From Clostridia bacterium 41_269 (GTDB lineage: Bacteria > Bacillota > DTU086), in NCBI GenBank assembly GCA_001508005.1, contig LGEZ01000012.1, positions 1-60,945 of the forward strand: a stretch of 60,945 nucleotides of DNA, given 5' to 3'. The position numbers were made by a program, and so were the translations under genes. Below the pieces are notes generated by a model, which searched no databases, had not been told where the DNA came from, and was given only the letters and a program-made list of their open reading frames with translations. The stretch's first letter is position 1. Every line of letters begins with the position of its first letter. Below, piece by piece: positions 9,342-60,945 of this stretch.

Positions 9342-10608
9342 TTAGATCCCAATTTTTTTAATTTTTGTTTTTAAATCAACATCTTCTTTAAAGGGCCCGA
9401 TTAAAGCCAGACCAAAATTTTCAGGATCAAATAACTTTTTTGCAAGTTTATGAACCTGTTCTAAACTCACTGACATTATTTCATTTACCATTTCATCAAT
9501 GGTTATAACTCTGTTATGGGTTAATTCTGATTTTCCCAATCTGCTCATATGATTTATTGTGTTTTCCATTGATAAGAGAAGTTCTCCTCTAAGCTGCTGT
9601 TTTGCTCTTTCTAATTCTGCTTCTGTTATTCCATTTTCTTTTATGGAAGCAATAATGTTTAAACATGTATCTATTACAGAATGCACATTGCTGCTGCTTG
9701 TTCCAGTGTGAATACACCATAAACCGCAGTCAAAAAAAAGATACGTTATATGAATATATTGAGTAAGCTAAACTGCGCTTTTCACGGATCTCTTGAAATA
9801 AACGAGAACTTAAACTGCCGCCCACAACGTTATTTAAGATGGTTAAAGCATATATATCCTCGTCAGTATGAGATAAAGCTGGTGTGCCTAAACATATCTG
9901 TACTTGTTCGCAGTTTTTATATTTTATGATTGTTTGGGGTTTAATTTCTGGAGGAATATATTTACTGTTGTCTCCTTGGGGTATGTTGATTTCAAAAGCA
10001 TAACCCAGACTGTCTACAATTTCTCTATGGTTAATATTTCCGGAAACAGAAATAATTATATTGCTGCCTATATATTCTCTCTTTAAAAAATCGAATATTT
10101 TATTCTTTGTAAAAGATGAAACAGATTCGATAGTTCCTAAAATAGGTTTTCCTAAGGGATGACCATCAAAAAAAGCTTTTGCAAAATATTCATGAACTAT
10201 TTCTTCTGGCATGTCTTCATAAGATTTAATCTCCTCAATTACCACTTTTTTTTCATTTTCAATGTCCACACTGGAATAAATAGAATTGAAAAACATATCA
10301 CATAGAATATCTGCAGCATCAAAAAAGTATTCTCCCAAGACCTTTAACAAAAAACATGTATATTCTTTTGTTGTATATGCATTTACTTGGGCTCCCATTT
10401 TTTCGAAAGCTTCTGAAATTTCAAAAGCATTTCGAGATTTTGTTCCCTTAAACTGCATATGTTCTATAAAATGGGAAATGCCGTGCTCATTTTCCTTTTC
10501 ATTTCTTGATCCAGTCTTTACCCAAATTCCCAGGGAAGCTGATTTTACATAGGGAATTTTTTCAGTAACTATCCGCACTCCATTGCTTAAGGTTGTTTTA
10601 TGCAGCAA
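9342..10608 (-). pseudogene. M16 family zinc peptidase (YmxG/MlpA type), frameshifted
   Basis: The first 292 codons carry the inverted zinc motif HFIEH near residue 47 and the matching Glu in the KKVVIEEIKSYED segment. They stop at TGA inside a run of eight T (plus-strand A8 at 9733-9740). Removing one base joins a second frame (DCGLWCIHTG...) to give about 421 aa, the normal family length. The start is also irregular: GAGGAGG is ideally placed for the ATG at 10615, which opens only five codons (MFIAA), whereas the family-like N-terminus begins at TTG 10608 in another frame. The lesion may be real, phase-variable by slippage, or a sequencing error. Confidence 0.85.
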
Positions 10609-10634
10609 TAAACATCTTGACCTCCTCTTTCAAA

Positions 10635-11828
10635 TTACTTATAGTCAGCTGGCAGTTTTCCAAAAAATAATAAAAAACCCATTAAATTTTTTATTTTGTA
10701 TTTTATCTTTTCCGGCAGAGTAATGGGTTCCACATTTTCTTGAACTGCAACGGGAATTTTAATGCTTTCCATATTATCTGCAGCAATTTTTAAAAACCCA
10801 ACTATTTCACCTTTTTTTAAGGGTATTTTTAAATCATTTATTATCAACTGCTTATTTAAAGTAGATACCTCATTTCTAGAAATAGTATAACTGCAATCTT
10901 CTACAGCAACAAGGTTAACTTGATGAGGTTTAGCATTGGAAAAGTATAATTTCCCTATTTCCATTCCTTTGGGTAAGTAAAAATTTTTAAATTGATTAAA
11001 TCCATATTCCAGCAGCTTTTTTGTATCCTCATAGCGATCTCCACTTTTAAGAACCACACTAATTAGCGAACGATTTTCCCTTGTTGCCGAAGCAATGAGA
11101 CAATGGCCAGCTGTATTAGTTGTTCCGGTTTTTACGCCGTCAATCCCAGGATATTTTCCCAGCAAACGATTTGTATTTTTAATGTAGCGTTTCCAAGTTG
11201 TTTTATTTTCAGGAATTTCTGCTTCTTTTGTTTTGACTACTGTGGCAAAAAAAGGGTTGTCCAAAGCATAATCCGTAATTATTGCCAAATCATAAGCTGA
11301 GGAATAATGTTCTGAAGCTGGAAGTCCGTGAGGGTTATTGAAATGAGTGTTGCGTGCTCCTAATATTATTGCTTTTTTATTCATTAGTTCCACAAAAAAT
11401 TTTTCACTTCCACCCACTGCTTCTGCTAAAGCAGCTGCAGCATCGTTCCCAGATCTTATCATGGTACCCAAAATTAAATCTTTTATGGTAAATTTTTCTC
11501 CTTGAGCTAAATATATAGAAGCCCCTCCTGTGGATGCTGCTTTTCTGCTGATAATAACCTCTTCATCTGGTGCAGATAATTCTATAGTTAAGATACCTGT
11601 CATAACCTTTGTTGTGCTAGCTGGTGGGCGCTTAACATGGGCATTTTTTTCAAAAAGAACTTTATCGGCTGTTCTATCGTAGAGAATTGCTGACTGTGCT
11701 GTGATATGCGGGTCAAAAGCATAGCTGCAATCAGAAAAAAAATTAAGCAGGAAGACAGCTGTTAAAAAAAGTGTTGTGATTTTTTTTACATTTATTATCA
11801 TCATATTACTTATTATATTACAGTTCAA
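10635..11828 (-). CDS. dacF: D-alanyl-D-alanine carboxypeptidase, S11 family (DacF-like)
   Basis: This is a penicillin-binding protein that trims the terminal D-Ala from peptidoglycan stem peptides. A signal peptide (hydrophobic FLTAVFLLNFF) precedes the SxxK box STTK near residue 67, the SGN box (SGNDAA) near 128 and KTGTT near 230. The beta-rich PBP5-type C-terminal domain ends in an amphipathic membrane-anchor helix (residues about 375-397). TTG start nine nt after AAAGGAG. DacF homologues act in spore cortex modification, which fits the sporulation neighbourhood, but the forespore role is inferred. Confidence 0.9.
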   Translation of the reverse strand: MNCNIISNMMIINVKKITTLFLTAVFLLNFFSDCSYAFDPHITAQSAILYDRTADKVLFEKNAHVKRPPASTTKVMTGILTIELSAPDEEVIISRKAASTGGASIYLAQGEKFTIKDLILGTMIRSGNDAAAALAEAVGGSEKFFVELMNKKAIILGARNTHFNNPHGLPASEHYSSAYDLAIITDYALDNPFFATVVKTKEAEIPENKTTWKRYIKNTNRLLGKYPGIDGVKTGTTNTAGHCLIASATRENRSLISVVLKSGDRYEDTKKLLEYGFNQFKNFYLPKGMEIGKLYFSNAKPHQVNLVAVEDCSYTISRNEVSTLNKQLIINDLKIPLKKGEIVGFLKIAADNMESIKIPVAVQENVEPITLPEKIKYKIKNLMGFLLFFGKLPADYK

Positions 11829-11860
11829 CTTGTAGCACTCCTTTTATGATTTTTGGCGCA

Positions 11861-12592
11861 TTATCTATTTTGGCTTTTTGTGTCCTGTATTATTTGTGAA
11901 ATAGTTTTAAATTTAAATCTCTGCTCCTTTAGCTCCTTAATGATAGTCGGCAGTGCTTTTAATGTTGAACTTTTAGGGTGCATCAGAACGATTGCACCAT
12001 TGTGGGCTCCATTAACCACTTTTTGTACAATTTCATCAGCTGTCTTATCTTTCCAGTCAACAGTATCAATTGTCCACATAATAGTTTTGTATCCTAGGTC
12101 ATTGGCCCATTTAACAATATTAGGGCTGCATTCTCCATAAGGAGGAGCATATATTTTTGCGTACTTTATTCCTAACTTTTTAAGTATTTTTTCCGTTTTT
12201 AATATTTCTTCTTTATTTTTTTCTACGCTTGAGCTATTAGGATGTATATGAGAATAGCCATGATTTCCTATTTCAAAACCAGAAGTATATATTTTTTTAA
12301 CTAAATCAGGATATTTTTCTGCAAATCTGCCTGTTACAAAAAATGTAGCCTTTACTTTTTTATCTGAAAGTTCTTTTATAATGTCAGGTAATATCTCTTC
12401 ACCCCAATCAACATTAAAAGTGAGGGCAATATCCTTCCTGTCAGGAGAACCGTGATATATGGGTTCAAGGGTAAATACAGTTTTTTGTTGATTATAAAAA
12501 GTATTCATTCCTTCCCAGGTTAAAAAAATGGATGTTGTCAAGAGGAAAATTATAAGGAAAATCTTAATCCTGCTGAGATAGAAAATTTTCAA
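11861..12592 (-). CDS. ylxY: Polysaccharide deacetylase family protein, YlxY-like
   Basis: An N-terminal membrane anchor (residues 10-28) is followed by a NodB domain. The metal and catalytic motifs are present as TFNVDWG near 58, NHGYSHIH near 113 and VLMHP near 205. The usual RPPYG appears as APPYG, as in the YlxY subgroup. Its place immediately after pnp corresponds to B. subtilis ylxY, a sporulation-associated gene of unproven activity. Starts with TTG after AGGGAGG, which lies in a hairpin (12600-12663). Confidence 0.88.
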   Translation of the reverse strand: MKIFYLSRIKIFLIIFLLTTSIFLTWEGMNTFYNQQKTVFTLEPIYHGSPDRKDIALTFNVDWGEEILPDIIKELSDKKVKATFFVTGRFAEKYPDLVKKIYTSGFEIGNHGYSHIHPNSSSVEKNKEEILKTEKILKKLGIKYAKIYAPPYGECSPNIVKWANDLGYKTIMWTIDTVDWKDKTADEIVQKVVNGAHNGAIVLMHPKSSTLKALPTIIKELKEQRFKFKTISQIIQDTKSQNR

Positions 12593-12599
12593 TAAAAAA

Positions 12600-12663
12600 C
12601 CTCCCTTAGTTCATGATAAAGCAACATTAAAAATGCTGTATGATATCTATGAATTATGGGAGG
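12600..12663 (-). promoter_or_regulatory. Inverted repeat that could hide the ylxY ribosome site
   Basis: Two 20-nt arms (12600-12619 and 12644-12663) are mostly complementary, each ending in a CCTCCC/GGGAGG block. The arm next to ylxY contains its Shine-Dalgarno (AGGGAGG), so pairing would hide it. This may be a translational switch or simply pnp 3' structure. Confidence 0.4.
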
Positions 12664-12681
12664 TCCATTATGCTTGGAATT

Positions 12682-12729
12682 TAAAAAAATAATAAAAAAC
12701 CATAAACCTTATTTCGGTCTATGGTTTTT
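12682..12729 (-). terminator. Terminator after pnp
   Basis: AAAAACCATA (12695-12704) pairs with TATGGTTTTT (12720-12729), with an inner ACC/GGT. On the minus strand it is followed by TTTTTTATTATTTTTTT, an excellent intrinsic terminator five nt past the pnp stop. Confidence 0.85.
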
Positions 12730-12733
12730 AAGA

Positions 12734-14965
12734 TTATTTATTTTTTCTATGTTCTCTAAATTTTTTTGTTTTGTTTTTAATATTTTTTTCTGCTTCTTTA
12801 TTTGCTTCTTTTAGAGCTTCTTTACGCGAAAGTTTCAGCCTGCCCAGCTGATCAAAACCAATAGCTTTAACTATTATTTTGTCACCTGCTTTTACCACAT
12901 CTTCTACTTTGTTAACCCTTTCTTCTGCCAGCTGGGAAATATGAACCATTCCTTCTTTACCAGGTAGTCCCATTACTCCTGGAATAACTTCTACAAAAGC
13001 CCCAAAGTCTGTTGTGCGTGTTACTTTTCCCAAATATATTTTTCCTATTTCCACATCTTCTGTTAAACTCTTAATCATTTCAAGGGCTTTCTCAGCTCCG
13101 CTTTGATCTACAGCGGCTATATATACTTTACCGTCATCTTCAATATCTATTTTTACTCCTGTTTCATCAATAATTTTCTTGATTATCTTTCCGCCTGGCC
13201 CAATTATATCTCGGATTTTTTCAGGATCTATTTCTGTTTTTATTATCCGTGGAGCATATGGTGACAGTGTTGGTCTTGGTTCTGGGATTGTTTCAATTAT
13301 TTTGTCCAAAATAATTAACCTTGCTTTTCTGGCTTGTTCTAACGCCCTTTTTAGGATTTCAGTATTGATTCCCGCTATTTTTATATCCATTTGTAGTGCT
13401 GTTATTCCCTTTTTTGTTCCTGCAACTTTAAAGTCCATGTCTCCTAGAGCATCTTCAATGCCTTGAATATCTGTTAAAATTTCAACTTTGTCTCCTTCTT
13501 TTATAAGACCCATGGCAATTCCAGCTACAGGTGCTTTTATGGGAACTCCAGCATCCATAAGAGCCAGGGTACTTCCACAAACACTTGCCATGGATGTGGA
13601 ACCGTTGGACTCTAAAACTTCTGAAACAAGCCTAATTGTATAAGGGAATTCATCTTCAGAAGGTAATACTCTTTCTAAGGCACGCTCTGCAAGTGCACCA
13701 TGACCTATTTCCCTTCTTCCTGGTCCGCGTATGGGTCTTGCTTCACCTACTGAATAAGGGGGGAAATTGTAGTGATGCATGTACCTTTTTGTTTCTTCTA
13801 CATCAATTCCGTCAAGAATTTGCTCTTCTCCTAAAGCTCCCAACGTACTTACAGTTAATACTTGAGTTTCTCCCCTTACAAACAAACCAGATCCGTGTGT
13901 TCTGGGTAAAATTCCTACTTTACATTCTATGGGTCTAATTTCATCAAGTTTTCTATTATCTATTCTTTCTTTCTTTTCCAGAATCATACTTCTAACTATT
14001 TCTTTTTCAATCTCAACAATCAGGCCTTCAATTCTTTTTTGTAAGTTTGGATCTTCTTCAAATAGCTCAGGTTTTAATTCCATCACTTTATTAACTATTT
14101 CTTCCTTTGTTTCTTTAAGTATTTTTTCTCTTTCTAATTTTTTACATCCCTTTGTTTTGACTTCATCGATCGCCTGGGCAATTAATTCCTTCCCTATCCT
14201 GTAAACTTCAGATTCTAAATCTTTATCTATTGGTTCTACTGAAACTTCTTTCTTTTCTTTTGCAATACCTTCTTTTAGGCATTCCTGTCTTAAATCTTTA
14301 ATAAACCTAACTATATTCTTGATTTCCTTGTGAGCAAGTTCAATGGCTTCGATAATTATGTCTTCTGGGACTTCGCTGGCTTCTGCTTCAACCATAACAA
14401 CTGCTTCTTCAGTTCCTGCTATGACAAGATCCAGCTCACTTTTTTCCCATTGTTCCAATGTAGGGTTTATTATTAGATCATTGCCTATTTTTCCAACCCA
14501 AACTGCGCCAATGGGATTTTCAAAGGGAATATCAGAAATCATTAATGCAGCAGAAGCACCGTTTATAGCTGTAACATCAGGACGATTATCTTGATCAACC
14601 GATAATACAGTTGCTACTATATGAATATCATTATGAAAGCCTTTAGGGAAAAGGGGTCTCAAAGGCCTATCTATTAAACGACTTGAGAGTGTTGCTTTTT
14701 CACTTGGCTTACCTTCCCGCTTTATAAACCCCCCTGGAATTTTCCCCACGGCATAAAGCCTTTCCTCATAATCTACCGTTAATGGAAGAAAATCTATTCC
14801 CTCACGGGGTTCTTCTGAAGCAGTGGCTGTAACCAACACGCAGGTATCTCCATACCTAACAAAGACTGAACCGTTTGCTTGAGTAGCCAAGCTACCAACA
14901 TTAAAACTTAAATTTCTCCCTGCTACTTCTATAGATTTAGTTATATTTATTCTGTTATTAAGCAT
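12734..14965 (-). CDS. pnp: Polyribonucleotide nucleotidyltransferase
   Basis: This is PNPase, the trimeric phosphorolytic 3'-5' exoribonuclease. The 743 residues contain two RNase PH domains (about 15-230 and 330-550) separated by a helical linker, then KH ([14 protein letters not shown] near 567) and S1 ([17 protein letters not shown] near 632) RNA-binding domains. The C-terminus is Lys-rich. AAGGAGGTAATATT precedes the ATG. It follows rpsO as in most bacteria, with a terminator between them. Confidence 0.97.
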
Positions 14966-15121
14966 TGCAAGAATATTACCTCCTTATCTTGAACTCAAAA
15001 AAAATTTGAGAATATATACTCGGATTTTTTTGTTTTAATTTATAAATACATCCAAATAATTCAATTTTTATTTTAGTATATCCTTCAAAAAATTTTTAAA
15101 AACAGAACAATTATATAATGT

Positions 15122-15150
15122 TCAAAAATAAAGAGCGGTCTTACCGCTCT
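15122..15150 (-). terminator. Terminator after rpsO
   Basis: AGAGCGGT (15132-15139) and ACCGCTCT (15143-15150) form an 8-bp stem, followed on the minus strand by TTTATTTTTG. It sits immediately past the rpsO stop and probably separates rpsO from pnp partially or fully. Confidence 0.8.
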
Positions 15151-15151
15151 C

Positions 15152-15421
15152 TTAACGTCTTAGATTAAGTTTAGAAATTATAGCCCGGTATCTTTCAATG
15201 TCTTTATTCTTCAAATAATTCAACAATCTTCTACGCTGACCTACCATTTTAAGCAGACCCCGTCTTGAATGATGATCCTTTTTGTGAACCTTTAGATGTT
15301 CACTTAACTGTTCAATACGTTCCGTTAAAATTGCTATCTGCACTTCGGGCGAACCTGTATCATTTTCGTGAAGTCTAAACTTTTCTATAATTTCACTTTT
15401 CTTTTCTTTCATTAAAGCCAC
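15152..15421 (-). CDS. rpsO: Small ribosomal subunit protein uS15
   Basis: This is the 16S rRNA-binding ribosomal protein S15, 89 aa. The typical signature runs through [19 protein letters not shown] and [23 protein letters not shown] with GGAGGTGTAATTTGAAG upstream. A structured leader and separate promoter precede it. Confidence 0.98.
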
Positions 15422-15451
15422 TTCAAATTACACCTCCATAATTTTAAATCG

Positions 15452-15499
15452 CCGCCTGCCAAGTAAAACGTCGGAGCACTCGATTTACCTAGCAGGTGG
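15452..15499 (-). promoter_or_regulatory. Structured rpsO leader, candidate S15 autoregulatory element
   Basis: CCGCCTGC (15452-15459) pairs with GCAGGTGG (15492-15499), and GTAAAACG pairs with CGATTTAC inside, leaving a 10-nt G/C-rich loop. It lies about 30 nt before rpsO. S15 binds its own mRNA leader in several bacteria; that this one is bound by S15 is inference. Confidence 0.5.
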
Positions 15500-15512
15500 T
15501 TCACTGGGTTAT

Positions 15513-15541
15513 ATTATATTCTGTTTTTATGTTATAGGCAA
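15513..15541 (-). promoter_or_regulatory. Promoter of rpsO
   Basis: TTGCCT (15541-15536) and TATAAT (15518-15513) are 17 bp apart on the minus strand, directly upstream of the structured leader. Confidence 0.65.
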
Positions 15542-15555
15542 ATAATATCATAAAT

Positions 15556-16506
15556 TTAGTTATAAAAAATTGTTTCTAGCTTACTTAATTTGGTTGTAGC
15601 AACTTCTATATCTTTTTTTATCTGTTCTTTTAATTCTTCTAGGTTTTTAAATTTCTTTTCATCTCTAATTTTATTTCTAAAGGAAAAACAAATGCTCTTT
15701 CCATATAAATTACCATCAAAATTGACAACATGAATCTCAACTCTTACATTATTTTCATCTGTTACAGTTGGTCTAACACCAATATTGGCAACTCCTATAT
15801 ATTTTTTATTGTCAATTGATACCATACCTGCATAAACACCGTTGGGGGGAAGCAGTATATCATCTTGTATATGCAGATTGGCTGTAGGAAAACCAATCTT
15901 TCTGCCCAATCTATCCCCAACAACTACTTTTCCATGAATAAAAGGCCAATAACCTAAGCATTCTTTAGCTTTGTATATTTCCCCAACTGCAATAAATTTT
16001 CTTATTAATGTACTGCTGATGGGCTGACTGTTTAGACACACAGGAGAGAAGATTTTTACATCAAAATTATATTTCTGCCCGTAATTTTTAAGAAGTTCTG
16101 CTGTACCAATTCCTCCTGAGCCGAAAGTATAATTATACCCAACATATACACATGATGGATTGAAAATTTTTACTAGTATATTTTTTATGAATTCATCAGA
16201 TTGAATTTCTGCTATTTTTTTGTTAAAAGGAAAAAATACTAATACATCAATATTTAATGCAGAAATAAGTTTAGCTTTAGCATGATTCGTAGTAATTAAT
16301 TTAGTATATTTATTACTTAAGATTTTCCCAGGATGAGGATTGAAAGTTACAACAATGCTTTTGGCACGGCTGTTTTTTGCATCCTTTACCATGGTATTGA
16401 TAATTTTTTTATGCCCTCTATGCACTCCATCAAAATTTCCAAGAGCTATATAGTTAACTGTATGTAAAAAGGAACCTGCAGAGGGAATTCCTGTTATTAT
16501 TTTCAT
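15556..16506 (-). CDS. ribF: Bifunctional riboflavin kinase/FAD synthetase
   Basis: It converts riboflavin to FMN and FMN to FAD. The N-terminal nucleotidyltransferase domain has ALGNFDGVHRGHK near residue 21 and TFNPHPGK near 53; the C-terminal flavokinase domain has GRKIGFPTANLHI near 200 and a GVYAG segment. Length 316 aa is normal. It sits between truB and rpsO as in B. subtilis (ribC). Confidence 0.96.
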   Translation of the reverse strand: MKIITGIPSAGSFLHTVNYIALGNFDGVHRGHKKIINTMVKDAKNSRAKSIVVTFNPHPGKILSNKYTKLITTNHAKAKLISALNIDVLVFFPFNKKIAEIQSDEFIKNILVKIFNPSCVYVGYNYTFGSGGIGTAELLKNYGQKYNFDVKIFSPVCLNSQPISSTLIRKFIAVGEIYKAKECLGYWPFIHGKVVVGDRLGRKIGFPTANLHIQDDILLPPNGVYAGMVSIDNKKYIGVANIGVRPTVTDENNVRVEIHVVNFDGNLYGKSICFSFRNKIRDEKKFKNLEELKEQIKKDIEVATTKLSKLETIFYN

Positions 16507-16517
16507 TTGATGCTCCT

Positions 16518-17432
16518 CTATATGAAAACTTTTTTTGGTTTAATTAATTTTTTTCCATTACTAATAATTACCTGTCCCACTGCTATTAACTTATCGTTAT
16601 GAATAATTTGAGCCATAGAATTATTTTTTAAAATTTTATCATTTAATTGCTTCATACTTATTGTGCTGCCGTTTTTAATTCTTTTTACATCAGATAGATC
16701 AACTTCAATTACAGGTAAATGTTTTACTAGATAATTCATGGGAAGAATAAAATCGTAATTGCCCTTTGATATATTTTCTTTAATTTCCTCAATGGTTAAA
16801 GAATCTTCTAATTTAAAAGGTCCTGATGATGTTCTTATTAAAAAGCTTAGGACTGCTCCTGTTCCAAGTTTTTCCCCAATATCTGAACATAATGTGCGGA
16901 TATAAGTTCCTTTTGAACATGTTATATCTATAATGATCCTAGGATGTGGTCCTTGAGGATAATATTTAAAAATTTCTAATTTCTTAATATATACTGTTCT
17001 GGTTTTTTTAGGTACTTCTATTCCTTTTCTTGCAAGTTCATATAGTCTTTTTCCTTTATAATGTACAGCTGAGAAATCAGGCGGAATCTGCTCAATGCTA
17101 CCTTTAAAGTCTTTTAATACCTGTTCTATAACTTCTAGTGGTAGATTTGAGACGCTTTTTTGGGATAATATCTCACCTACTGTATCATAAGTGTTTGTCG
17201 TTATCCCCAAAGTTAGTTCTGCCCTGTAAGATTTAAGATGCTCAAGAGTATATTCAGCCAGTCTAGTCGCTTTACCTACGCATATTGGAAGAACACCACA
17301 GGCAACAGGATCTAATGTTCCAGTATGTCCAACTTTTCTTTTCTGCAGTAATTTACGAATATAATCAACTGCATCATGGGAGGTTATTCCCGGGGGTTTT
17401 AGAAAATTTATAACGCCGCAAATATCACTAAT
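16518..17432 (-). CDS. truB: tRNA pseudouridine(55) synthase, probable ATT start
   Basis: It makes pseudouridine 55 in the T-loop of tRNAs. The in-frame sequence GVINFLKPPGITSHDAV and KVGHTGTLDP, with the catalytic Asp, clearly belongs to the protein but has no ATG, GTG or TTG in front of it. The best-placed initiation codon is ATT at 17432, nine nt after AAGGGGG, giving 304 aa; a second ATT is at 17423. Starting at the first internal conventional codon (about 17210) would delete the active site. It begins five nt after nrnA, so coupled translation is likely. A point mutation of an original ATG is an alternative. Confidence 0.88.
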   Translation of the reverse strand: MSDICGVINFLKPPGITSHDAVDYIRKLLQKRKVGHTGTLDPVACGVLPICVGKATRLAEYTLEHLKSYRAELTLGITTNTYDTVGEILSQKSVSNLPLEVIEQVLKDFKGSIEQIPPDFSAVHYKGKRLYELARKGIEVPKKTRTVYIKKLEIFKYYPQGPHPRIIIDITCSKGTYIRTLCSDIGEKLGTGAVLSFLIRTSSGPFKLEDSLTIEEIKENISKGNYDFILPMNYLVKHLPVIEVDLSDVKRIKNGSTISMKQLNDKILKNNSMAQIIHNDKLIAVGQVIISNGKKLIKPKKVFI

Positions 17433-17436
17433 TTTT

Positions 17437-46814: not shown

Positions 46815-48785
46815 GTGACTGCAATGGAAAAACAAAAATCGGAAAGCCCAATTGAAGGACTATTAGAAGAGAAAAGGTTATTTAAGCCCAGTGACGAGTT
46901 TAGAGCCCAGGCAAACGTAAATGATCCAAAAATATATGAAGAAGCCGCAAAGGATAGAGAAGCTTATTGGGCAAAACAAGCAGAACGCCTTCATTGGTTT
47001 AAGAAATGGGATAAAGTTCTGGAATGGGACCCTCCCTTTGCAAAATGGTTTATTGGTGGCAAATTAAATGCCTCTTACAATTGCGTTGACCGTCATTTTA
47101 AAAGCCATCGAAGACAAAAACCTGCAATTATTTGGGAGGGAGAGCCGGGTGAGCAGAGAGTTTTAACATATGAAGACCTATATTACGAAGTTAACAAATT
47201 TTCAAATGTACTTAAAAACCTTGGAGTAAAAAAAGGTGACAGAGTAACAATTTATATGCCCATGGTACCTGAACTAGCAATTGCAGTGCTTGCATGTGCC
47301 CGTATTGGAGCTCCACACAGCGTAGTTTTTGGTGGTTTCAGCGCTGATTCATTACGGGAACGCATTAACGACTGTCAGAGCAAAATTGTAGTTACTGCAG
47401 ATGGTGGATACCGCAGAGGAAACTTTATTCCCCTTAAGGACAATGTGGATGAAGCTCTAAAAAATGCCCCCAGTGTTGAAAAAGTAGTTGTTTTTCAACG
47501 GGGAGAAGATAAGAAGAAGGTAAACATGCATAAGGATCGCGACTATTGGTGGGACGAATTAATGGAAAAAGCAGAAACATACTGCGAACCTGAACCCATG
47601 GATTCTGAAGATATGCTCTTCCTATTATACACAAGTGGGACCACTGGAAAACCAAAAGGTATTGTTCATACAACTGGTGGCTATATGACCGGAGTTACCA
47701 CAACAACTTATATGATATTTGACATAAAAGAGGATGATATTTATTGGTGTACAGCAGATATAGGCTGGATTACGGGACATTCATATGTGGTTTACGGTCC
47801 TTTATCAAACGGTGCTACAGTAGTAATGTATGAAGGAGGCCCCGATTATCCAGATAAAGACCGTTTTTGGAGAATAGTCGAAAAATACAGAGTAACTATC
47901 TTTTATACAGCACCAACGGCAATAAGATCTTTTATGCGCTGGGGAATCGAATATCCTCGTAGATGCGATCTATCAAGTCTGCGTCTTTTAGGAACTGTTG
48001 GTGAGCCCATAAATCCTGAAGCATGGATATGGTTCCATAAATATATCGGTAATGAAAAATGTCCCATTGTGGATACCTGGTGGCAAACAGAAACAGGCTC
48101 TATTCTAATTAGTCCTCTGCCGGGCATTGTAGCAACAAAACCAGGTTCAGCAACGATACCAATACCAGGCATTGAAGCTGATGTAGTTGATAATTATGGG
48201 AATCCTGTGGAGCCGGGACAAGGTGGATACTTGGTTATAAAATCACCTTGGCCTTCTATGCTGAGAACTATCTATGGTGATGAAAAAAGATATATTGATA
48301 CTTACTGGAGTAAATATAAGAATATGTACTTCCCAGGAGATGGGGCTAAAAAAGATGAAGATGGATATTTTTGGCTGCTGGGCAGGGTTGATGATGTAAT
48401 AAATGTTTCTGGTCATAGGATAGGCACAATGGAAGTTGAGAGTGCCCTTGTTGATCACCCCAGTGTTGCTGAATCGGCTGTTATAGGGAAAAGTCATGAT
48501 ATTAAGGGGCAGTGTATTGTGGCATTTGTAACCCTAAAAGAAGGTGTAAAAGGAACACCAGAACTGGAAAATGAGTTAAAGCTGCATGTCGGTAAAAAAA
48601 TTGGTGCCATTGCGAAACCAGAAAAAATATATTTCACTGCTGAACTTCCCAAAACTCGAAGTGGAAAAATTATGCGCAGGCTGTTGAGGGATATTGCTGA
48701 AGGTAGAATTCTTGGAGATACCACTACGCTGGCAGATCCTACTGTAATTGAGCGCATTAAAAGCCAGTACACAGATAAGGAGTGA
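46815..48785 (+). CDS. acs: Acetyl-coenzyme A synthetase
   Basis: AMP-forming ligase that activates acetate. Acs N-terminus with [19 protein letters not shown], CoA-site [18 protein letters not shown] near 170, the core loop [20 protein letters not shown] near 275, DTWWQTETG near 420, and the regulatory Lys motif [14 protein letters not shown] near 620. GTG start behind AAAGGGGG; an ATG three codons later is possible. The 656-aa length is typical. It is followed at once by an organic-acid transporter gene. Confidence 0.95.
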
Positions 48786-48790
48786 TTTCA

Positions 48791-50063
48791 ATGGATAAAA
48801 CTACAGAGGTTACTGCAAAAAAACTTCCCAATCGATGGTTGATAGTCGTTGCGGGTATTATTATTCAGCTTTGCCTTGGCACACTGTACGCATACAGTGT
48901 ATTCAGAAACCCTTTGATGGAAAAATTCGGCTGGACCATAACAGAAGCATCCATGGCATTTACTATTTGCCTCGTGTTTTTCACCATCGCAATGGTTTTT
49001 GCAGGGCTGTGGCAGGATAAGGTAGGTCCAAGACTTGTAGGTACGGTAGGAGGAATACTTTTGGGCGCTGGCTGCTTACTGGCCAGCCGAACAAATTCTC
49101 TGACCATGCTCTACATTTCTTATGGAGTTATTGCCGGAACTGGTGTAGGATTTGCCTATGTAACCCCAATCGCAACCATTGTTAAGTGGTTCCCCGATAA
49201 AAGGGGCATGATGACAGGATTTGCAGTATTTGGATTTGGTGCGGGTTCTCTGGTTTTTGCACCTCTTGCAGCAAAACTTATTATAAAATATGGAGTTTTA
49301 AACGCATTTGCCATTCTTGGTATTATATTTTTAATTGCAGTTGCAGGATCTGCTCAATTACTACAGAATCCACCTCAGGGCTGGAAGCCTAAAGGTTGGA
49401 ACCCGCCACAAACCGAAGCAAGTGCCAAAGGAATTACGTTGAGAGAAGACTATTCTCCAGGAGAAATGCTCCGCACATTACGTTTTTGGATTGCATGGAC
49501 AATGTATTTTTTAGGAGCTTCAGCAGGATTAATGATTATTTCACAGGCTGCACCTATGGCAGAAGAAATGGTTGGCTTAAGTAAGGAAACAGCGGCAGCA
49601 GCAGTTGGCGTCCTAGCAATTTTCAACGGTCTGGGTAGGCTTTTCTGGGGTGCTGTATCTGACAGAATTGGGAGAAACCTTTCCATATTCCTTATGTTCT
49701 CTGTATACGCTGTAGACCTTTTCTTTGTACTGCCGCATGCAACAACCTATGCCAGTTATGTTGTTGGAATTTGCGCAGCAGCATTTTCCTTTGGAGGATA
49801 CCTGGCATTAATGCCAGCTATAACCGCAGATTACTTTGGAACAAAAAATTTGGGAATAAACTATGGTTGGATGTTTACAGCATACGGAGCAGCAGCTATC
49901 TTCGGACCATTGCTAATTGCACGTATCAAAGAAGCCTCCGGGGGGGTATTCCCAGGCACTATATATCCTAGCAGCGCTGTCACTCATAGGAGTGGGTTTG
50001 ACTGTAATTAACAAAATTATCCAAAATCGTATTTTTCAGCATGAGATTAAAACAGATTCTTAG
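48791..50063 (+). pseudogene. MFS transporter, OxlT (oxalate/formate antiporter) family, frameshifted at the 3' end
   Basis: Eleven membrane helices are encoded in one frame, with MFS loops DKVGPRLVG near 75 and DRIGRNLS near 295. The reading frame then hits a run of seven G (49940-49946) and ends out of frame at 50011 with a hydrophilic tail. Removing one G continues in a frame encoding ALYILAALSLIGVGLTVIN, the missing helix 12, to TAG at 50061-50063 (about 423 aa). ATG 48791 lies eight nt after AAGGAG at the acs stop. Acetate or another monocarboxylate is the likely cargo, inferred from the acs neighbour. Confidence 0.85.
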
Positions 50064-52152: not shown

Positions 52153-52177
52153 TGTCTAGAGTAATTTTTAGTATAAT
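52149..52177 (+). promoter_or_regulatory. Promoter of lexA
   Basis: TTGCTG (52149-52154) and TATAAT (52172-52177) have 17-bp spacing, with the -35 box overlapping the third SOS box. Confidence 0.7.
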
Positions 52178-52203
52178 AGTTAAAAAAATGAGGTGGTTTT
52201 CTA

Positions 52204-52845: not shown

Positions 52846-52899
52846 AGAAAAAATGTTATTGAGAATAAGACAAATATATTAATCTTTTAAACTAATCTT

Positions 52900-54231
52900 T
52901 TAAAATTTGTGAAGATAGTTTTCAATTTCCCACGGATGTACTTCCTTTGAGTAAGAGTTCCACTCTTGAATTTTAATTTTAAAATAACTTTCTACTAGAT
53001 GCTCTCCCAAACCACTTTTCAAGTATTTATCAGACATTAATGTTATGAGGGCCTGTTCTAAATTTTTGGGAAGCTGAAATTCATCATTAAAATTATAAAA
53101 CTCTGAACATGAATCATCTATATTTTCATTGGGTTTAGGTGGATTAATCCTTTCCTCTATGCCTCTAATTCCCGCTCTAACGGCTGCTGCTATAGTTAAA
53201 TAGGGATTGCATGAAGGATCTGGGCTTCGCCATTCTATAAAACTTTCTCCTAAATTTTTTAAGGGAATTTTTATAAAAGATTTATTAGAGTAATATGACC
53301 AACTCATACAACGGGGAGTATCGTTATCACCCCATAGCCTTTTATATGAATTTATAGTGGGATTTGCAAGGGCAGTTAGAGAACGAGCATGTTTAAATAT
53401 GCCACCCATAAAATAAGCCATGTCATTATTACTTTCCCCTTCTAATCCCGCCTCTTGAATAAATAACTTTTTATTATTTTTGAATAAGTAGAAACGCAGA
53501 TGCATTCCCGATCCAGAAAGTCCTTTTATTGGTTTTGGCATAAATGTTGCATGAAGCCCATGACGTTGGGCAATGGTTCTTATTACAAATTTATATGTGA
53601 CAATATTATCTGCAGCAGAAAGTGCATCACTTGGTTTAAAAACTATTTCATGCTGTCCAGGGGATTTTTCATGATGCGAAGTTTCAACATCTATTCCCAT
53701 ATCTTGAAGGGTAATAATCATATCCCTTCGGGCGTTTTCCCCTAAATCCAAAGGAGTAAGATCAAAATGCTCTCCTTTATCATGAGTTTCTGTTGTTGGT
53801 TTCCCATGCTCATCAACTAAAAAAAGAAAAAATTCTGCTTCTGGACCAATATGTATGGAATAGCCCCTCTCTTGAGCTTCCCCAAGAATTCTTTGGAGCA
53901 CTGATCTTGTACAGCATTTTGCTGGTTCCCCGTTCTCATCATAAAGACTGCAAATAAGTCTTGCTACTGCTCCTTCTTGAGGTCTCCATGGAAATGTTAC
54001 AAAAGTTGAAGGATCTGGAAACAAAAATAGATTTTTTTCGGTTTTTAAACAATATTTATTGACTGAAGAACCATCAATAACAATTTTACCATCGAGAGCT
54101 TTTTCCAGCTGGTTAACTGTCACCGCTACATTTTTTAAGGTTCCCAGTATATCCGTGAATTGGAGTCTTATAAACCTTACATCCCTATCGTCTGCTGCCT
54201 GTAAAATCTTGCCCTTCTCTTCGGCATTCAC
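52900..54231 (-). CDS. glnA: Glutamine synthetase family protein with a divergent active site
   Basis: 443 aa of the type I GS fold. Conserved metal and ammonia-site blocks are present: IGPEAEFFLF near 125, HHEKSPGQHEI near 185, ATFMPKPI and GSGMH near 235-245, SPDPSCNPYL near 340. Usual KRLVPGYEAP is KRLWGDNDTP, NRS is NKS, IRIP is IKIP and the DGSSI-x-ESDM loop reads DGSSVNKYCLKTEKN. It may be a gamma-glutamyl ligase with another acceptor, or an altered GS. It lies in the B. subtilis ynbB-glnRA position, but glnR is absent. Confidence 0.85.
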   Translation of the reverse strand: MNAEEKGKILQAADDRDVRFIRLQFTDILGTLKNVAVTVNQLEKALDGKIVIDGSSVNKYCLKTEKNLFLFPDPSTFVTFPWRPQEGAVARLICSLYDENGEPAKCCTRSVLQRILGEAQERGYSIHIGPEAEFFLFLVDEHGKPTTETHDKGEHFDLTPLDLGENARRDMIITLQDMGIDVETSHHEKSPGQHEIVFKPSDALSAADNIVTYKFVIRTIAQRHGLHATFMPKPIKGLSGSGMHLRFYLFKNNKKLFIQEAGLEGESNNDMAYFMGGIFKHARSLTALANPTINSYKRLWGDNDTPRCMSWSYYSNKSFIKIPLKNLGESFIEWRSPDPSCNPYLTIAAAVRAGIRGIEERINPPKPNENIDDSCSEFYNFNDEFQLPKNLEQALITLMSDKYLKSGLGEHLVESYFKIKIQEWNSYSKEVHPWEIENYLHKF

Positions 54232-54259
54232 TTAACCCAAATCTCCTTTCAACTATGTT

Positions 54260-55492
54260 TTATTTTTTTATTTTCTCAAATAATTTTTCAGTAGTTTTGT
54301 TAATTATTATTTTTGTATACTCGTATGAAATACCTCCCTGAAGGTATAACCAATACGGAGGTTTAACTGGAGCATCTGCGCTTAATTCAATAGATGATCC
54401 CTGAATAAATGTTCCCCCAGCCATAATTATTTTATCTCTATAACCAGGAAGCCATGATGCCTCAGGAACTGCCATAGAATCTACGGGAGAAAATCTCTGC
54501 AAATAATGGCAGAAATTTTCTAAAAGTTCCTGATCGTTAAATTTAATAGCTTGAACTATATCAGTACGATATTCGTCATATCTTGGACTTACTTCAAAAC
54601 CCAACTTTTCATAAAGACAAGCAGTATATATTGCACCTTTTAAAGCTTCTGTTACCACAAGGGGAGCCATAAAAAACCCTTGAAACAGCAGGCGGGGATC
54701 TGTCAGGCTTGCACCTATTGAACTTCCCAAACCCGGTGCTGTTAGGGATGATGCAACTTTTTCAATTAACTCTTGCTTTCCTACAACATAACCACCAGTT
54801 GGGGCTAAACTTCCACCAGGATTTTTAATTAATGAACCAACAACCAAATCTGCTCCTACTTCTGTGGGTTCTTTGTTTTCTACAAATTCTCCATAACAGT
54901 TGTCCACCAGACATACAATATTTTGGTTAAAATCTTTGACCGTTTTTACTATGGATTCTATTTTTTTTATACTGAGTGAAGGTCGATTTTGATATCCCCT
55001 GGAACGCTGAATTAATACTAATTTTGTCCTAGAAGAAAGTGCACATTTTAAATTTTCTAAATCAGGCAAACCTTCTGATGTAAGGGGAATTTCTTTATAT
55101 AAAATATTAAAATCCTTCAACAGACCGGCATTACGCTCATAAATGCCCAGTGCATTACTTAAAGTATCATAAGGAGTTCCTGTTGCCGAAATAATTTCCT
55201 CACCTGGCCTGACTATACCCATTATAGATTTAACAATGGCATGAGTGCCTGAAACAAATTGCGTCCTTACAACAGCATCTTCTCCTTTAAATACCTTAGC
55301 ATAAAGGCTGTCAAGTTTTTCTCTGCTTAAATCCCCATATCCATATCCTGTTGATCCATAAAAACAGCTTTCAGAAATATTTAATTCTCTAAAAGCATTT
55401 AGTACTTTCTCATGATTAAAACTGCTGATTTTATTAAGCTTTAAAAATAAATGTGTTATTTCATTTTCTACTTCTTCAAAAAGTTTTTGCAT
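54260..55492 (-). CDS. YnbB-type PLP enzyme (methionine gamma-lyase family, 'aluminium resistance protein')
   Basis: 410-aa fold-type I PLP enzyme. TQFVSGTHAI near 77, CLVDNCYGEFVE near 198 and SLIKNPGGSLAPTGGYVVG near 222 with the Schiff-base Lys. The family is annotated from an aluminium-resistance phenotype; its true reaction is not settled. It lies between spoVK and glnA, as ynbB does in B. subtilis. Confidence 0.9.
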   Translation of the reverse strand: MQKLFEEVENEITHLFLKLNKISSFNHEKVLNAFRELNISESCFYGSTGYGYGDLSREKLDSLYAKVFKGEDAVVRTQFVSGTHAIVKSIMGIVRPGEEIISATGTPYDTLSNALGIYERNAGLLKDFNILYKEIPLTSEGLPDLENLKCALSSRTKLVLIQRSRGYQNRPSLSIKKIESIVKTVKDFNQNIVCLVDNCYGEFVENKEPTEVGADLVVGSLIKNPGGSLAPTGGYVVGKQELIEKVASSLTAPGLGSSIGASLTDPRLLFQGFFMAPLVVTEALKGAIYTACLYEKLGFEVSPRYDEYRTDIVQAIKFNDQELLENFCHYLQRFSPVDSMAVPEASWLPGYRDKIIMAGGTFIQGSSIELSADAPVKPPYWLYLQGGISYEYTKIIINKTTEKLFEKIKK

Positions 55493-55497
55493 AAAAG

Positions 55498-56490
55498 CTA
55501 ATTACCCCCTGAGGCTGCAGATTTTTTTGCTTCGAAAATTTTAATAACATTATTGTCGTTGTTATTATTTATTTTAGAAGTTAAATCTTCAATATCGCAA
55601 GCTTTTAAATATATTAACTGCTCTCTAGAAAAATTATTTTCATGAATTAATCTTAAGGCTTGTGCACGTATAGATTTTTCTATAATGTTTCTTGCAAGAC
55701 GTGCATTACCCTCATAGCAGTGGCCAATGCTCACTGCATTTCTGATAGCATTTTTCAGCTTTATCTCTGCCTCGGCTGTTAGGCAGTACTGTCTTTCTTC
55801 TAACATCATCTTTGCTATTTTTAACAGCTCTTCTACTGTATAGTCAGAAAATTCCAGCTGAATGGGAAATCTCGATCTCAAGCCAGGATTGCTATTTAAA
55901 AATAATTCCATTTCAACTTTATAACCTGCCAAAATCAAAACAAAATCATTGCGATAATCTTCCATTGCTTTAACCAGGACATCTATGGCTTCTTTCCCAA
56001 AATCCTTAACTCCTCCCCTTGCCAGAGAGTAAGCTTCATCAATAAAAAGTACTCCCCCTAAACTTTTTCTAACTTGCTCCCTTGTCTTCTGTGCTGTATG
56101 CCCAACATACTCTCCCACCAAATCAGCTCTTTCAACTTCATTTACATCTCCCTTTTCCAAAATACCAAGCTCTTTAAAAAGTTTCCCCATTAATCGTGCC
56201 ACTGTAGTCTTACCCGTTCCTGGATTTCCTTTAAAAATCATATGAAAAACCATTGGTTCCGTAGCCAATCCCTCTAATTCTCTTTTCTTTTGAATTTTAA
56301 CAAAAGCAATAATTTCTTCCACCAACTCCTTAATATTTCCTAAACCTACAAGCTTTTTAAATTCTTTAATACTTTCGAGTCCTGCTGTTATATGTGAAGA
56401 ATTTTTATTTTTGTTAAAAATACTTTGCTTTAAGCAATGCTCATTAATTTCTTTCTTAGCGGAATTTACAAAGTTAAAATGTATCTTCAA
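55498..56490 (-). CDS. spoVK: Stage V sporulation protein K (AAA ATPase)
   Basis: 330 aa CbbX-like AAA+ protein with Walker A GNPGTGKTTVARL near 92, Walker B GGVLFIDEAYSL near 148 and LRSRFPIQLEF near 208. SpoVK is required for spore maturation. TTG start after GGGGAG. The C-terminus has a low-complexity NNNNDNN stretch coded by repeated AAT/AAC, a possible slippage site. Confidence 0.92.
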   Translation of the reverse strand: MKIHFNFVNSAKKEINEHCLKQSIFNKNKNSSHITAGLESIKEFKKLVGLGNIKELVEEIIAFVKIQKKRELEGLATEPMVFHMIFKGNPGTGKTTVARLMGKLFKELGILEKGDVNEVERADLVGEYVGHTAQKTREQVRKSLGGVLFIDEAYSLARGGVKDFGKEAIDVLVKAMEDYRNDFVLILAGYKVEMELFLNSNPGLRSRFPIQLEFSDYTVEELLKIAKMMLEERQYCLTAEAEIKLKNAIRNAVSIGHCYEGNARLARNIIEKSIRAQALRLIHENNFSREQLIYLKACDIEDLTSKINNNNDNNVIKIFEAKKSAASGGN

Positions 56491-56583
56491 TGTTTTTCAC
56501 TCCCCACGAAAAAATAGAAAACAATAAAATATCTAAATAATATTTTATGAAACCATTAATACTTCAGTGCTTGACTGCAATAA

Positions 56584-56620
56584 AATTAAAAAACTCTCTA
56601 GATAAACTCTGGAGAGTTTT
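56584..56620 (-). terminator. Terminator after hfq
   Basis: AAAACTCTC (56590-56598) and GAGAGTTTT (56612-56620) form a 9-bp stem followed on the minus strand by TTTTTTAATTTTATT. Confidence 0.8.
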
Positions 56621-56622
56621 AG

Positions 56623-56637
56623 ATTATTATTATTATT
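56623..56637. repeat. (ATT)5 trinucleotide microsatellite
   Basis: Five tandem ATT units lie between the hfq stop and its terminator. Non-coding, and potentially unstable without mismatch repair. Confidence 0.75.
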
Positions 56638-56656
56638 ATCTTCTATGCTATCTCTA

Positions 56657-56902
56657 CTATTCTTTATTATTTTCTCCTTCAGGTAGAAGACTGACATTTC
56701 GTGAAGGTACAATGGTGGAAATAGCATGTTTATAAACCATTTGCTGCTTTCCTTCTACTTCTAGAACTACTGTAAAATTATCAAAAGCTTTTATTACTCC
56801 TCTCAATTGGTAACCATTAATCAAGAACAGCGTTACAGACTGACTTTCTTTTCTAAGTTGATTTAAAAAAGAATCTTGAAGGTTAATTTGATTCTTAGTC
56901 AT
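56657..56902 (-). CDS. hfq: RNA chaperone Hfq
   Basis: 81 aa Sm-like hexameric RNA-binding protein. [13 protein letters not shown] at the N-terminus, Sm1 [25 protein letters not shown]-type segment and Sm2 [11 protein letters not shown] 56902, ten nt after GGAGG, gives the normal N-terminus. Standard place between miaA and spoVK. Confidence 0.96.
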
Positions 56903-56962
56903 CCTACATGTACCTCCATTTTTTTTCTCTCTACCAATAAGGGCAGGCATTTATATTCTATA

Positions 56963-57919
56963 CTAATTTAATTTTATTTGCAATCGCTGGCGAATATGTG
57001 TTCCAATTGCTTTAGCTAATTCCTGCAGATTTGAATAATCATCTACATTAAACCACACAATATTTTTATCTCTTTTAAACCATGTAAGCTGACGCTTAGC
57101 ATAATTTCTAGTTTCTTTCTTTATCAACTCTATACATGTATTAATATCATATTTTCCTTCCAAAAAACCCAAAACCTGCTTATAACCCAACCCTTGAGCC
57201 CAGTTATAATTAGTTTTATATCCTCTTTTTACGAGAGATTTAACTTCATCTATTAAACCTTCTTCTATCATTTTATCTACTCTTTTTTCTATTTCTGAAT
57301 AAAGTTTTTTTCTTTCCATATATAAACCCACAGAAGCTGTCCTATAACATGATTTATTTTTGCTCTCTGAATCCGAAATTCGTTTTCCAGTTAAGTAAAA
57401 AAATTCTAAAGCCCTGATTATTCTTTTTATATCATTAGGATGTATTTTTTCAGAAGCTTTAGGGTCTATGGAAACTAGTTTTTTATATAGATACATATTC
57501 CCTTTTTCCTCGGCTTCTCTCATCAATTCTAAGCGCAGCTCTTCATTAAAAGATTTCTTTGGAAATTCATATCCATAAACAATTGCGTTGTAATATAATC
57601 CTGTTCCACCAACTAATATGGGAAGCTTTCCGCGGTTATGTATCTCTCTAATTATTTTTTTAGCTTCCCGTTGGAAATCTGCCACGTTGTAGTTAATATC
57701 AGGAGTAACAATATCAATCATATGATGTGCTATATATCTTCCACTTTTTGCATAGCATTCTTCCTTTTTAATTTTTGCGGTCCCAATATTTAAGCCTATG
57801 TATACCTGCATTGAATCAACAGAAACAATTTCTCCATCAAGCATATCAGCTACCTCTAAGGCAACTTTAGATTTTCCAGTAGCTGTGGGACCAACTATAG
57901 CCCCTATTGGTATGCTCAT
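56963..57919 (-). CDS. miaA: tRNA dimethylallyltransferase
   Basis: Prenylates A37 of UNN-decoding tRNAs. P-loop IVGPTATGKSKVAL at residue 8, SVDSMQVYIGLNIGTAK near 34, VGGTGLYYNAIVYG near 98, and the C-terminal RNYAKRQLTWFKRD near 275. 318 aa. It starts 18 nt after the (frame-corrected) mutL stop. Confidence 0.96.
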   Translation of the reverse strand: MSIPIGAIVGPTATGKSKVALEVADMLDGEIVSVDSMQVYIGLNIGTAKIKKEECYAKSGRYIAHHMIDIVTPDINYNVADFQREAKKIIREIHNRGKLPILVGGTGLYYNAIVYGYEFPKKSFNEELRLELMREAEEKGNMYLYKKLVSIDPKASEKIHPNDIKRIIRALEFFYLTGKRISDSESKNKSCYRTASVGLYMERKKLYSEIEKRVDKMIEEGLIDEVKSLVKRGYKTNYNWAQGLGYKQVLGFLEGKYDINTCIELIKKETRNYAKRQLTWFKRDKNIVWFNVDDYSNLQELAKAIGTHIRQRLQIKLN

Positions 57920-57937
57920 TTTTTTACACCACCGACA

Positions 57938-59750
57938 TCAGCTGTTTCTCAAAAACTCACTTAGCAATTTACTCCCTGGAATTATGACAGTTGTAGGACG
58001 CCCATGGGGACATGTTAATGGGTTCTCTAAAGAAAAAAGTTTATTTACTAAAGCCTCCATTTCTTCAAAGTTCATTTTTTTTACCCGCTTTAACTGAAGT
58101 TCTGCAGGCCATCTTTTTTATAAAATCCTCTTTATCTATTTTTCTCCCTTTATTTTTCTCCTCAGCTAATTCATCAATTATATCAAGAAAAAAAACATCA
58201 GCTGTTTGTTTTTCTAGAAAAACAGGAACTTCTCTCAATATAAATGAACTTCCACCAAAATGTTCTACTTTAAAACCAAGTTCTGAAAGATCATTTTTTA
58301 GTTCATCAACAACTGCTGTTTGGGAAGGAGATAACTCAAGTTTTTTAGGGAACACAAGCTGCCTTGCTGCTAAATTTTCCTTTTTAGAATACTCTTCATA
58401 TTTAATTCTTTCATGGGCAGCATGTTGGTCTATAATATACAAATCTTTTCCATATGAACATATAATAAATGAAGCATTATGTTGTCCAATTACCCGTGGG
58501 GTTTCTGCAGTATATTCTAACTGTACCTCTTTGAAAACAATATTATTATCATTATCTTTCTTCGAAAAATCTGTTATGCATTCATTGATAAATTCATTTA
58601 ATTCTTTTATTTGAGAAGTCTTATTATTAAGATATTTCATTTTTAACTGAAAATTTTCTTCTTTTATGTCTACTTTACCATTAGTTTCTTCTTTCCCAAT
58701 CTTATTTACATTAAATTTCTCGTTTTTAAAATCAGCGGAAAAAGTTTTTAACTCAGAAAACCTGCTTTTAAATAAATTTTTTCTAACTGAATTTTTAATA
58801 AATTCAATTATTTTGTTCTCATCTTTAATTCGCACCGTATTTTTTGTTGGATCTACATTAACATCAATAAGATGATTATCAATATTTAATGACAAAACAG
58901 CCATAGGAAATCTATTTTTAGGAATCAAAGTGTAGTAAGCATCATCAACAGCTTTTCTCAAAATTTTGTTTGCAACCCACCTTTTGTTAATGTAAAAATA
59001 TTGATATTTATGAGATCCCTTAGTGTAAAAAGGTTTTGATATAAATCCACTAAGAATCCATGAACTCTCCTTTTCATTAACCTCAATCATATTTTCAACG
59101 GCTTCAAAACCGAAAATTTCTGCAATACAATCAAGAAGTCTGCCATTACCAGCAGTCTGATAAATAATACTGCCGTTATTTACCAAGCGAAATGAAATAT
59201 CTGGAAATCCTAAGGCATATCTGGTGACAGTTTCATTCACAAAATAAGTTTCTTTAGAAATGCTTTTTAGGAATTTTTTTCTGGCAGGTGTATTAAAAAA
59301 TAAATTTTCAACTTCAACAGTAGTGCCATCAGAGCAGCCCACAGCAGAAAAACTTTTCATTTTTCCACCCTCAACTTCCAATCGATAGCCTTGAGCTGAC
59401 CCCTTATACTTGCTAGTTATTATCATTTTTGCAACAGCAGCAATGCTGGCTAATGCTTCACCCCTAAAACCCATGGTCTTTATAAAACTAAGTTCCTCAA
59501 AGCTTTTTAGCTTACTTGTTGCATGGCGAAGATACGACAGCTTTATATCATGCTCATCCATGCCACAACCGTTATCACTCACTTTAATTTTTTCAATTCC
59601 CCCAGAATAAATTTCAACATAAATGCGGGAACTTCCGGCATCAATAGAATTTTCAATTAATTCTTTGACTACTGAAGCTGGATTTACAACAATTTCCCCT
59701 GCTGCAATTTTGTTTGATACAGCAGGGTCCAATATTATAATGCTGCCCAA
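57938..59750 (-). pseudogene. mutL: DNA mismatch repair protein MutL, frameshifted near the C-terminus
   Basis: N-terminal GHKL ATPase: IAAGEIVVNPASVVKELIEN near 16, DNGCGM and GFRGEALASI. The C-terminal endonuclease domain begins with DQHAAHERIKYEEY and reaches ACRTSVKAGKK, then meets a run of eight A (plus T8 at 58075-58082) and stops at 58065 after NEL. Removing one A restores MNFEEMEALVNK through CPHGRPTTVIIPG to TGA at 57938 (about 604 codons). The lost tail holds the zinc-site motif CPHGRP required for nicking. TTG 59750 after GGGGTG gives the usual start. Whether the defect is biological or a read error is unresolved. Confidence 0.88.
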
Positions 59751-59755
59751 TAATA

Positions 59756-60856
59756 TCACCCCAATACTTTTAAGCTCCTCACTTTTTTCTGCAGTTCATC
59801 TAACGTACTAATTGCCTGAAGTGGAGTTATGTTCAATAGATCCAATTTTTCAATCTCTTCCAGAAGTTTTTTAACATCTTTCCACCTATCTTCTTTTATA
59901 TCAAGATCTTTCTTTTTTTCTGAGATTTCTAGAGCATTTGTATTAAAACTTTTTTCCTCAAGCTGCATTAATATTTCCTCTGCCCGTCTAATAATTTCCT
60001 GAGGTAGACCAGCTAATCGAGCAACTTGAATCCCATAACTTTTATCAGTACCACCAGGTACAACTTTATGCAGAAATACTATCCCATCATCTTTTTCTTG
60101 AGCAGTTACATTAAAATTTTTTACACCCGGCAAATAATTTTCCAATGCTGTAAGCTCATGATAATGTGTTGCAAATAGGGTTTTAGATTTATTTTTATTT
60201 GCTATATATTCAACTATTGCCCATGCCAGACTTAGTCCATCATAAGTACTTGTCCCTCTTCCCACTTCATCCAGAAGCACAAGACTTTGGGATGTAGCGT
60301 TATTAATAATATTGGAAACTTCATTCATTTCAACTAAAAAAGTACTTTGACCTGTTGCTATATCATCTGAAGCCCCAATTCTAGTAAATATTTTATCTAC
60401 AATGGGAAGCTCTGCACTTTCTGCTGGTACTAAGCTACCCATTTGAGCCATAATGCAGATCAAAGCATTCTGACGAAGGTACGTGGATTTACCAGACATA
60501 TTGGGCCCGGTAAGTATAATTATCCTTTGATCTTCACTATTTAGTTCCAAATCATTGGGTACAAAATTCTCCTCTCCTACAGCCTGTTCAACAACTGGAT
60601 GTCTCCCTTTCACTATCTTTATTGCTTTTATATCTTTACTGATATTAGGTTTTACATAATTGTAGATTGCTGCAGCTTCTCCAAGAGAACACAAAGCATC
60701 CAGTTCTGCTAAGCTAAGTGCTGACTGCTGTATCTCCTCAATGTACTTTGCTACAAAACTTTTTAGATTATTAAAAATTTCTATTTCCAACCTGCTTAGT
60801 CTTTCTTCTGCGCTTAATACAGTATTTTCATAATCCTTTAACTCTTTAGTTATATA
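59756..60856 (-). pseudogene. mutS: DNA mismatch repair protein MutS, 3' part only, interrupted by an insertion
   Basis: The remaining 366 codons begin YITKELKDYENTVLSAEERL, about residue 500 of a normal 860-aa MutS, and continue through Walker A TGPNMSGKSTYLRQ, the LLDEVGRGTSTYDGLSLAWA Walker B block, TLFATHYHEL and the C-terminal helices. Upstream, homology ends abruptly at 60857 where a sequence resembling an IS terminus begins. The 5' part (mismatch recognition and clamp domains) is outside the window or lost. The remnant lacks the DNA-mismatch domain. Confidence 0.9.
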
Positions 60857-60857
60857 T

Positions 60858-60945
60858 CAGACTGTCGACAAAACCGCTTTTATGCTGTAAGGCATAGAAG
60901 CGGTTTTTATTATAACATCACATAAATTATTAAATAAATTGGTTA
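60858..60945. mobile_element. Probable insertion-sequence end inserted in mutS
   Basis: The sequence beginning CAGACTGTCGACAAAA has the look of an IS terminal repeat (IS1182-like ends are my best guess). It is followed by a strong hairpin (60870-60908), a feature that shields transposase genes from outside transcription. It begins exactly where the MutS frame is lost and runs off the window. No transposase frame is visible in the 88 nt available. Confidence 0.55.
60870..60908. terminator. Hairpin terminator inside the IS-like end
   Basis: AAAACCGCTT-T-TATGC pairs with GCATA-G-AAGCGGTTTT around a 6-nt loop, with A and T runs on both sides. It would block transcription across the junction in either direction. 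Confidence 0.7.

Follow-up and report, generated by a model that had tools for sequence, protein, structure and literature searches.

The draft genome of Clostridia bacterium 41_269 carries a mutS gene split by an insertion element, a frameshifted mutL gene and a set of single-base indels in homopolymer runs elsewhere, and for this one assembly the best reading is that the organism probably belongs to a lineage devoid of MutS/MutL mismatch repair, that is, a natural hypermutator. The window analysed here is the whole of one contig, C14 (60,945 bp; LGEZ01000012.1 of assembly GCA_001508005.1), from a draft genome of 1.67 Mb in 30 contigs that is 95.5% complete. Comparisons were made with one metagenome-assembled genome (MAG) of the same genus, the public 'Clostridia bacterium isolate AS09scLD_70' (denoted G001), whose DNA is ~80% identical to that of the window over the syntenic stretch. 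A preliminary description of the window had suggested a hypermutator signature from three homopolymer frameshifts and broken mutS and mutL genes; the disruption of both genes and 17 single-base indels in 15 genes, against a single one in G001, support that suggestion.

Only the 3' part of mutS resides in the window (59756-60857, minus strand), where it covers positions 484-840 of the TIGR01070 profile and includes the ATPase Walker A motif GPNMSGKST. A search of the organism's own genome with this profile placed the 5' part (positions 1-488) on a second contig, at C18:87-1601, and found no full-length mutS; no second copy of mutS1 or mutL was found in the genome either. In G001, mutS is uninterrupted within a 914-codon frame, and contig C57 of that genome spans the window and continues directly into C18, with both mutS halves collinear with the intact gene. 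The window sequence at the break is ...TTAGTTATATAT followed by CAGACTGTCGACAAA, that of C18 is TTTGTCGACAGTCTG followed by TATATATCTTTC, and the uninterrupted site in G001 is TTGGTTATAAACCTTTC. The mutS half in the window ends in a 7-bp target-site duplication, TATATAT (60851-60857), which is repeated at bases 90-96 of C18, where the other half begins. Beyond it, the last bases of the window (60858-60945) comprise a 15-bp terminal inverted repeat, CAGACTGTCGACAAA, and 73 bp more, and ends identical to this one occur on contigs C3 and C10. Because the 15-bp inverted repeats at the two junctions match perfectly and are accompanied by the 7-bp duplication, the break is attributed to an insertion element; the junction sequences thus indicate that an element known from its ends alone split mutS upstream of the ATPase domain. 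As Walker A belongs to the downstream half, no ATPase can be made from the upstream half. Truncation of mutS merely by the end of a contig was ruled out, as the same foreign inverted repeat and the target duplication flank both sides and the halves are collinear with the intact G001 gene. Family-wide loss of mutS was also considered and set aside, since the apparent break in a second related genome (G002) sits at an NN in the assembly and that in a third (G003) at a contig end.

The mutL gene (58065-59759, minus strand; TIGR00585, E = 2e-161) is broken after residue 564, where its frame ends early with ...KMACRTSVKAGKKNEL; the G001 gene, of 600 aa, is intact, and its product runs ~45 residues further, CPHGRP among them. 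The lesion coincides with a T8 run (58075-58082, plus strand; A8 on the coding strand) that is one base over the frame-keeping length. The missing 3' end is still recognizable out of frame by tblastn of G001 MutL (57941-58077, minus strand), with the CPHGRP motif at 57995-58012. Hence two of the MutL endonuclease motifs, DQHAX2EX4E and ACR, are present in the open frame, and CPHGRP is out of frame. MutL endonucleases have three metal-site motifs, of which CPHGRP is one; its arginine is required for nuclease activity and for in vivo repair by Thermus MutL (PMC10366529). Given this requirement in the Thermus protein, the truncated MutL should be inactive in repair. That mutL itself was broken by a slip in a run suggests that mutS was lost earlier.

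Two further window genes are frameshifted in the same manner. An M16-family zinc peptidase gene that adjoins the dap-asd-dpa and pnp genes (9342-10608, minus strand) is divided into two frames (9730-10608 and 9342-9686) at an A8 run (plus strand; T8 on the coding strand) that is one base longer than in G001. An OxlT-like or L-lactate MFS transporter gene (48782-50063, plus strand; NF049980, 473 bits) is shifted near its 3' end, leaving the last ~38 residues out of frame, by a G7 run (49940-49946, plus strand) one base over the frame-keeping length. Pairwise DNA alignment confirms that all three runs have one extra base relative to G001 and that the frames on both sides are open, and the syntenic M16, OxlT-like and mutL genes of G001 are intact. 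The preliminary description had placed the G7 and T8 runs exactly; for the peptidase its one-base excess stands but the run lies at 9732-9739, not at 9733-9740. It had also regarded the remainder of the window as essentially intact, and apart from these lesions the window is indeed intact when set against G001. The same genes have a GC content of 34.9% in the window (1319-60854) and 38.5% in G001 (C57, 35303-95512).

To place these lesions in the genome, conserved open frames of both genomes were compared in both directions by tblastn and DNA alignment, within stretches amounting to 696 kb of Clostridia bacterium 41_269 (~42% of the genome) and 799 kb of G001. The indel count covers 399 G001 ORFs, with about 343-345 kb of coding sequence each way, or about one-fifth of the genome. 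It yielded 17 single-base indels in 15 genes, so that ~1 in 26 checkable genes is broken by a single-base slip. The reverse comparison gave only one clear indel in G001, located in a transposase. As the window was chosen for its frameshifts, the count outside it is given separately: 12 frameshifted genes versus 0 or 1 in G001 (p = 0.0005 or 0.003). The preliminary description had proposed that homopolymer-linked frameshifts be counted against others; in the 343-kb sample, 16 of the 17 single-base indels lie in runs, nearly all 5-9 long when pre-mutation lengths are inferred from the G001 reading frame at ~80% DNA identity. The exception is the second of two indels in an RlmL-like methyltransferase gene, in a run shorter than 5. 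Its claim of exactly one extra base per run holds for the three window runs but, as a general pattern, was an accident of the small sample, for the full set comprises 9 insertions and 8 deletions.

Besides the three window genes, the affected genes encode a histidine kinase (C26:18854, G7), spore photoproduct lyase (SPL; C12:20322, T9), YlbJ (C21:8226, A10), FapA (C21:37254), FliK (C1:129300), FlhF (about C1:139640), FlhG (a MinD-like ATPase; C1:140858), a TIGR04086 membrane protein (C26:52510), an RtcB-family protein (about C21:5370), a geranylgeranyl-reductase-like protein (about C1:151350, A10), the RlmL-like methyltransferase (two indels, C6:15850-16000) and a NAGPA-like protein (two indels, C6:36950-37250). 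The labels FlhF, FlhG and NAGPA-like are our own reading; the gene at C21:8226, at first taken for AroC, was reassigned to YlbJ after a family search. Five other candidates (C12:15975, C6:81660, C1:158842, C1:161300 and C14:7573) were dropped as upstream or antisense open frames. By function, four of the 15 genes are flagellar, two are sporulation genes and none belongs to core translation or replication; transport and accessory genes are also among those affected. About 23 lesions were seen in all. Among those of other kinds, nonsense codons interrupt a DASS symporter gene and an SdpI-like gene and shorten FliM, a GGDEF-EAL gene has suffered a deletion, and there is a tandem duplication of 13 bp at C18:8774. 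With frameshifts in FliK, FlhF, FlhG and FapA and a shortened FliM, motility is probably being lost. While the sporulation genes SPL and YlbJ are frameshifted at T9 and A10, the dipicolinate synthase genes of the window look intact. Events per run climb with run length, from ~0.0004 for runs of 5 to 3 in ~6 runs of 9.

A platform that miscalls homopolymer lengths could in principle produce such frameshifts, in which case the insertion in mutS would be real but unrelated to them. Single-base changes in runs, the kind of error made by flow-type and nanopore chemistries, account for nearly all events, and because error also climbs with run length, the length-dependent event rate does not discriminate error from mutation. 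However, in nearly all cases where contig ends have sequence in common, the overlap is exactly 89 bases (the exceptions being rRNA ends and a simple repeat), which implies a fixed-k de Bruijn assembly and hence short, accurate reads; a long-read or 454-type consensus would not yield such overlaps, although flow-type (Ion) reads put through a de Bruijn assembler could give rise to some of the same pattern. The 9/8 balance of insertions and deletions does not fit pure over-calling, and there are also lesions outside homopolymers (the insertion in mutS, the nonsense codons, the 13-bp duplication and a large deletion). Moreover, the events fall in less conserved genes, although this signal is weak (median 75% identity for frameshifted genes versus 82% for run-carrying genes overall, p = 0.04, falling to 0.02 when the window is excluded), and they are concentrated in flagellar and sporulation genes. 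An essential-gene test of low power is compatible with error as well as mutation: 0 of 16 events fell in 18 genes classed as essential versus ~1.2 expected (P = 0.28), a weak result because those genes hold only 7.6% of runs of at least 6. On balance, sequencing or assembly error is an unlikely source of the frameshifts, and systematic over-calling, which the preliminary description had named as the competing idea, is disfavoured.

Ordinary decay under relaxed selection, with motility and sporulation being lost in a small population whose mutation rate is normal or slightly elevated and mutS and mutL as mere casualties, would explain why lesions cluster by function (FliK, FlhF, FlhG and FapA; SPL and YlbJ) and why some lie outside homopolymers. 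We consider it improbable, however, given that 17 of ~23 lesions are single-base indels and 16 of these are in runs, the share expected without mismatch repair, that both mismatch-repair genes are broken, and that almost no such lesions occur in G001, which matches in genus and genome size. Least credible is that the frameshifts are phase-variable switches or are rescued by RNA polymerase slippage on poly-A/T runs: 10-A runs do occur in YlbJ and the geranylgeranyl-reductase-like gene, but efficient slippage generally calls for longer runs than those found here (4-8, and G7), two genes have two lesions each, and the mutS insertion is not rescuable by slippage. Such rescue has been proposed for the reduced genomes of the endosymbionts Blochmannia and Buchnera (PMC3017870), which likewise are AT-rich and carry homopolymer frameshifts; there, some essential genes are affected, perhaps rescued by transcript slippage, whereas here no core gene in the sample is.

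Under loss of mismatch repair, the insertion in mutS would have been the initial event, abolishing mismatch recognition. Slippage during replication of runs of 5-9 would then have gone uncorrected, frameshifting genes under weak selection, such as those for FliK, FlhF, FlhG and FapA, for SPL and YlbJ, and for a transporter, a kinase and accessory enzymes, while purifying selection would have cleared such frameshifts from essential genes. Last, mutL would have been broken by a slippage-type lesion. Whether this describes a stable, long-lived environmental Clostridia lineage without MutS/MutL, its motility and sporulation eroded by homopolymer slippage, as opposed to a short-lived mutator strain, is a more tentative matter; we regard the former as possible but rather less than even.

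Mismatch-repair-deficient lineages are already known, but the setting here is unusual. In natural Pseudomonas aeruginosa hypermutators, inactive mismatch-repair genes (mutS, mutL or uvrD) and homopolymer indels are the reported marks (PMC9355025, PMC3764201), and both features recur here. Those hypermutators, however, are clinical isolates with measured rates, whereas here a draft genome alone represents an anaerobic member of the Clostridia in which both mutS and mutL are broken. Mutation-accumulation lines of mutS-deleted Vibrio and mismatch-repair-deficient P. aeruginosa accrue single-base homopolymer indels at rates that climb with run length, and G:C runs are the more mutable in mismatch-repair-deficient P. 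aeruginosa (PMC5854121; PMC4702332). The present indels also climb with run length, and 2 events fell in ~45 G/C6 runs versus 6 in ~811 A/T6 runs; in contrast to such lines, selection has acted in Clostridia bacterium 41_269, and therefore only tolerated indels remain. Most natural mutators known so far were found in chronic infections or in laboratory cultures kept for long periods. Here the putative cause, an insertion element in mutS and a broken mutL, stands beside its footprint, run-length-dependent frameshifts in dispensable genes, in a single anaerobe draft genome. Such a genome would help gauge how frequently mismatch repair is lost outside hosts, and it warns against routine dismissal of homopolymer frameshifts in such genomes as sequencing errors.

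Ends of the insertion element also occur on contigs C3, C10, C21 and C26, where the flanks pair as two more insertions, giving three copies in the genome. Rearrangement between copies was ruled out because the duplications pair C14 with C18, C3 with C26 and C10 with C21. The other two copies (C3/C26 and C10/C21) are in palindromic, terminator-like sites at which the whole palindrome is duplicated (~24-27 bp, versus 7 bp in mutS). An ORF adjoining the same repeat in another genome (G020) gave no Pfam match at E = 1e-9. A solo relic of one element end, 94% identical, is present at C18:28598-28683; the 301-aa ORF beside it has a G001 counterpart of 95-97% identity that contains a 1-base deletion. 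Adjoining the copy on C10 is a 1400-residue ORF with PKD-like repeats (222-4421), probably a surface protein.
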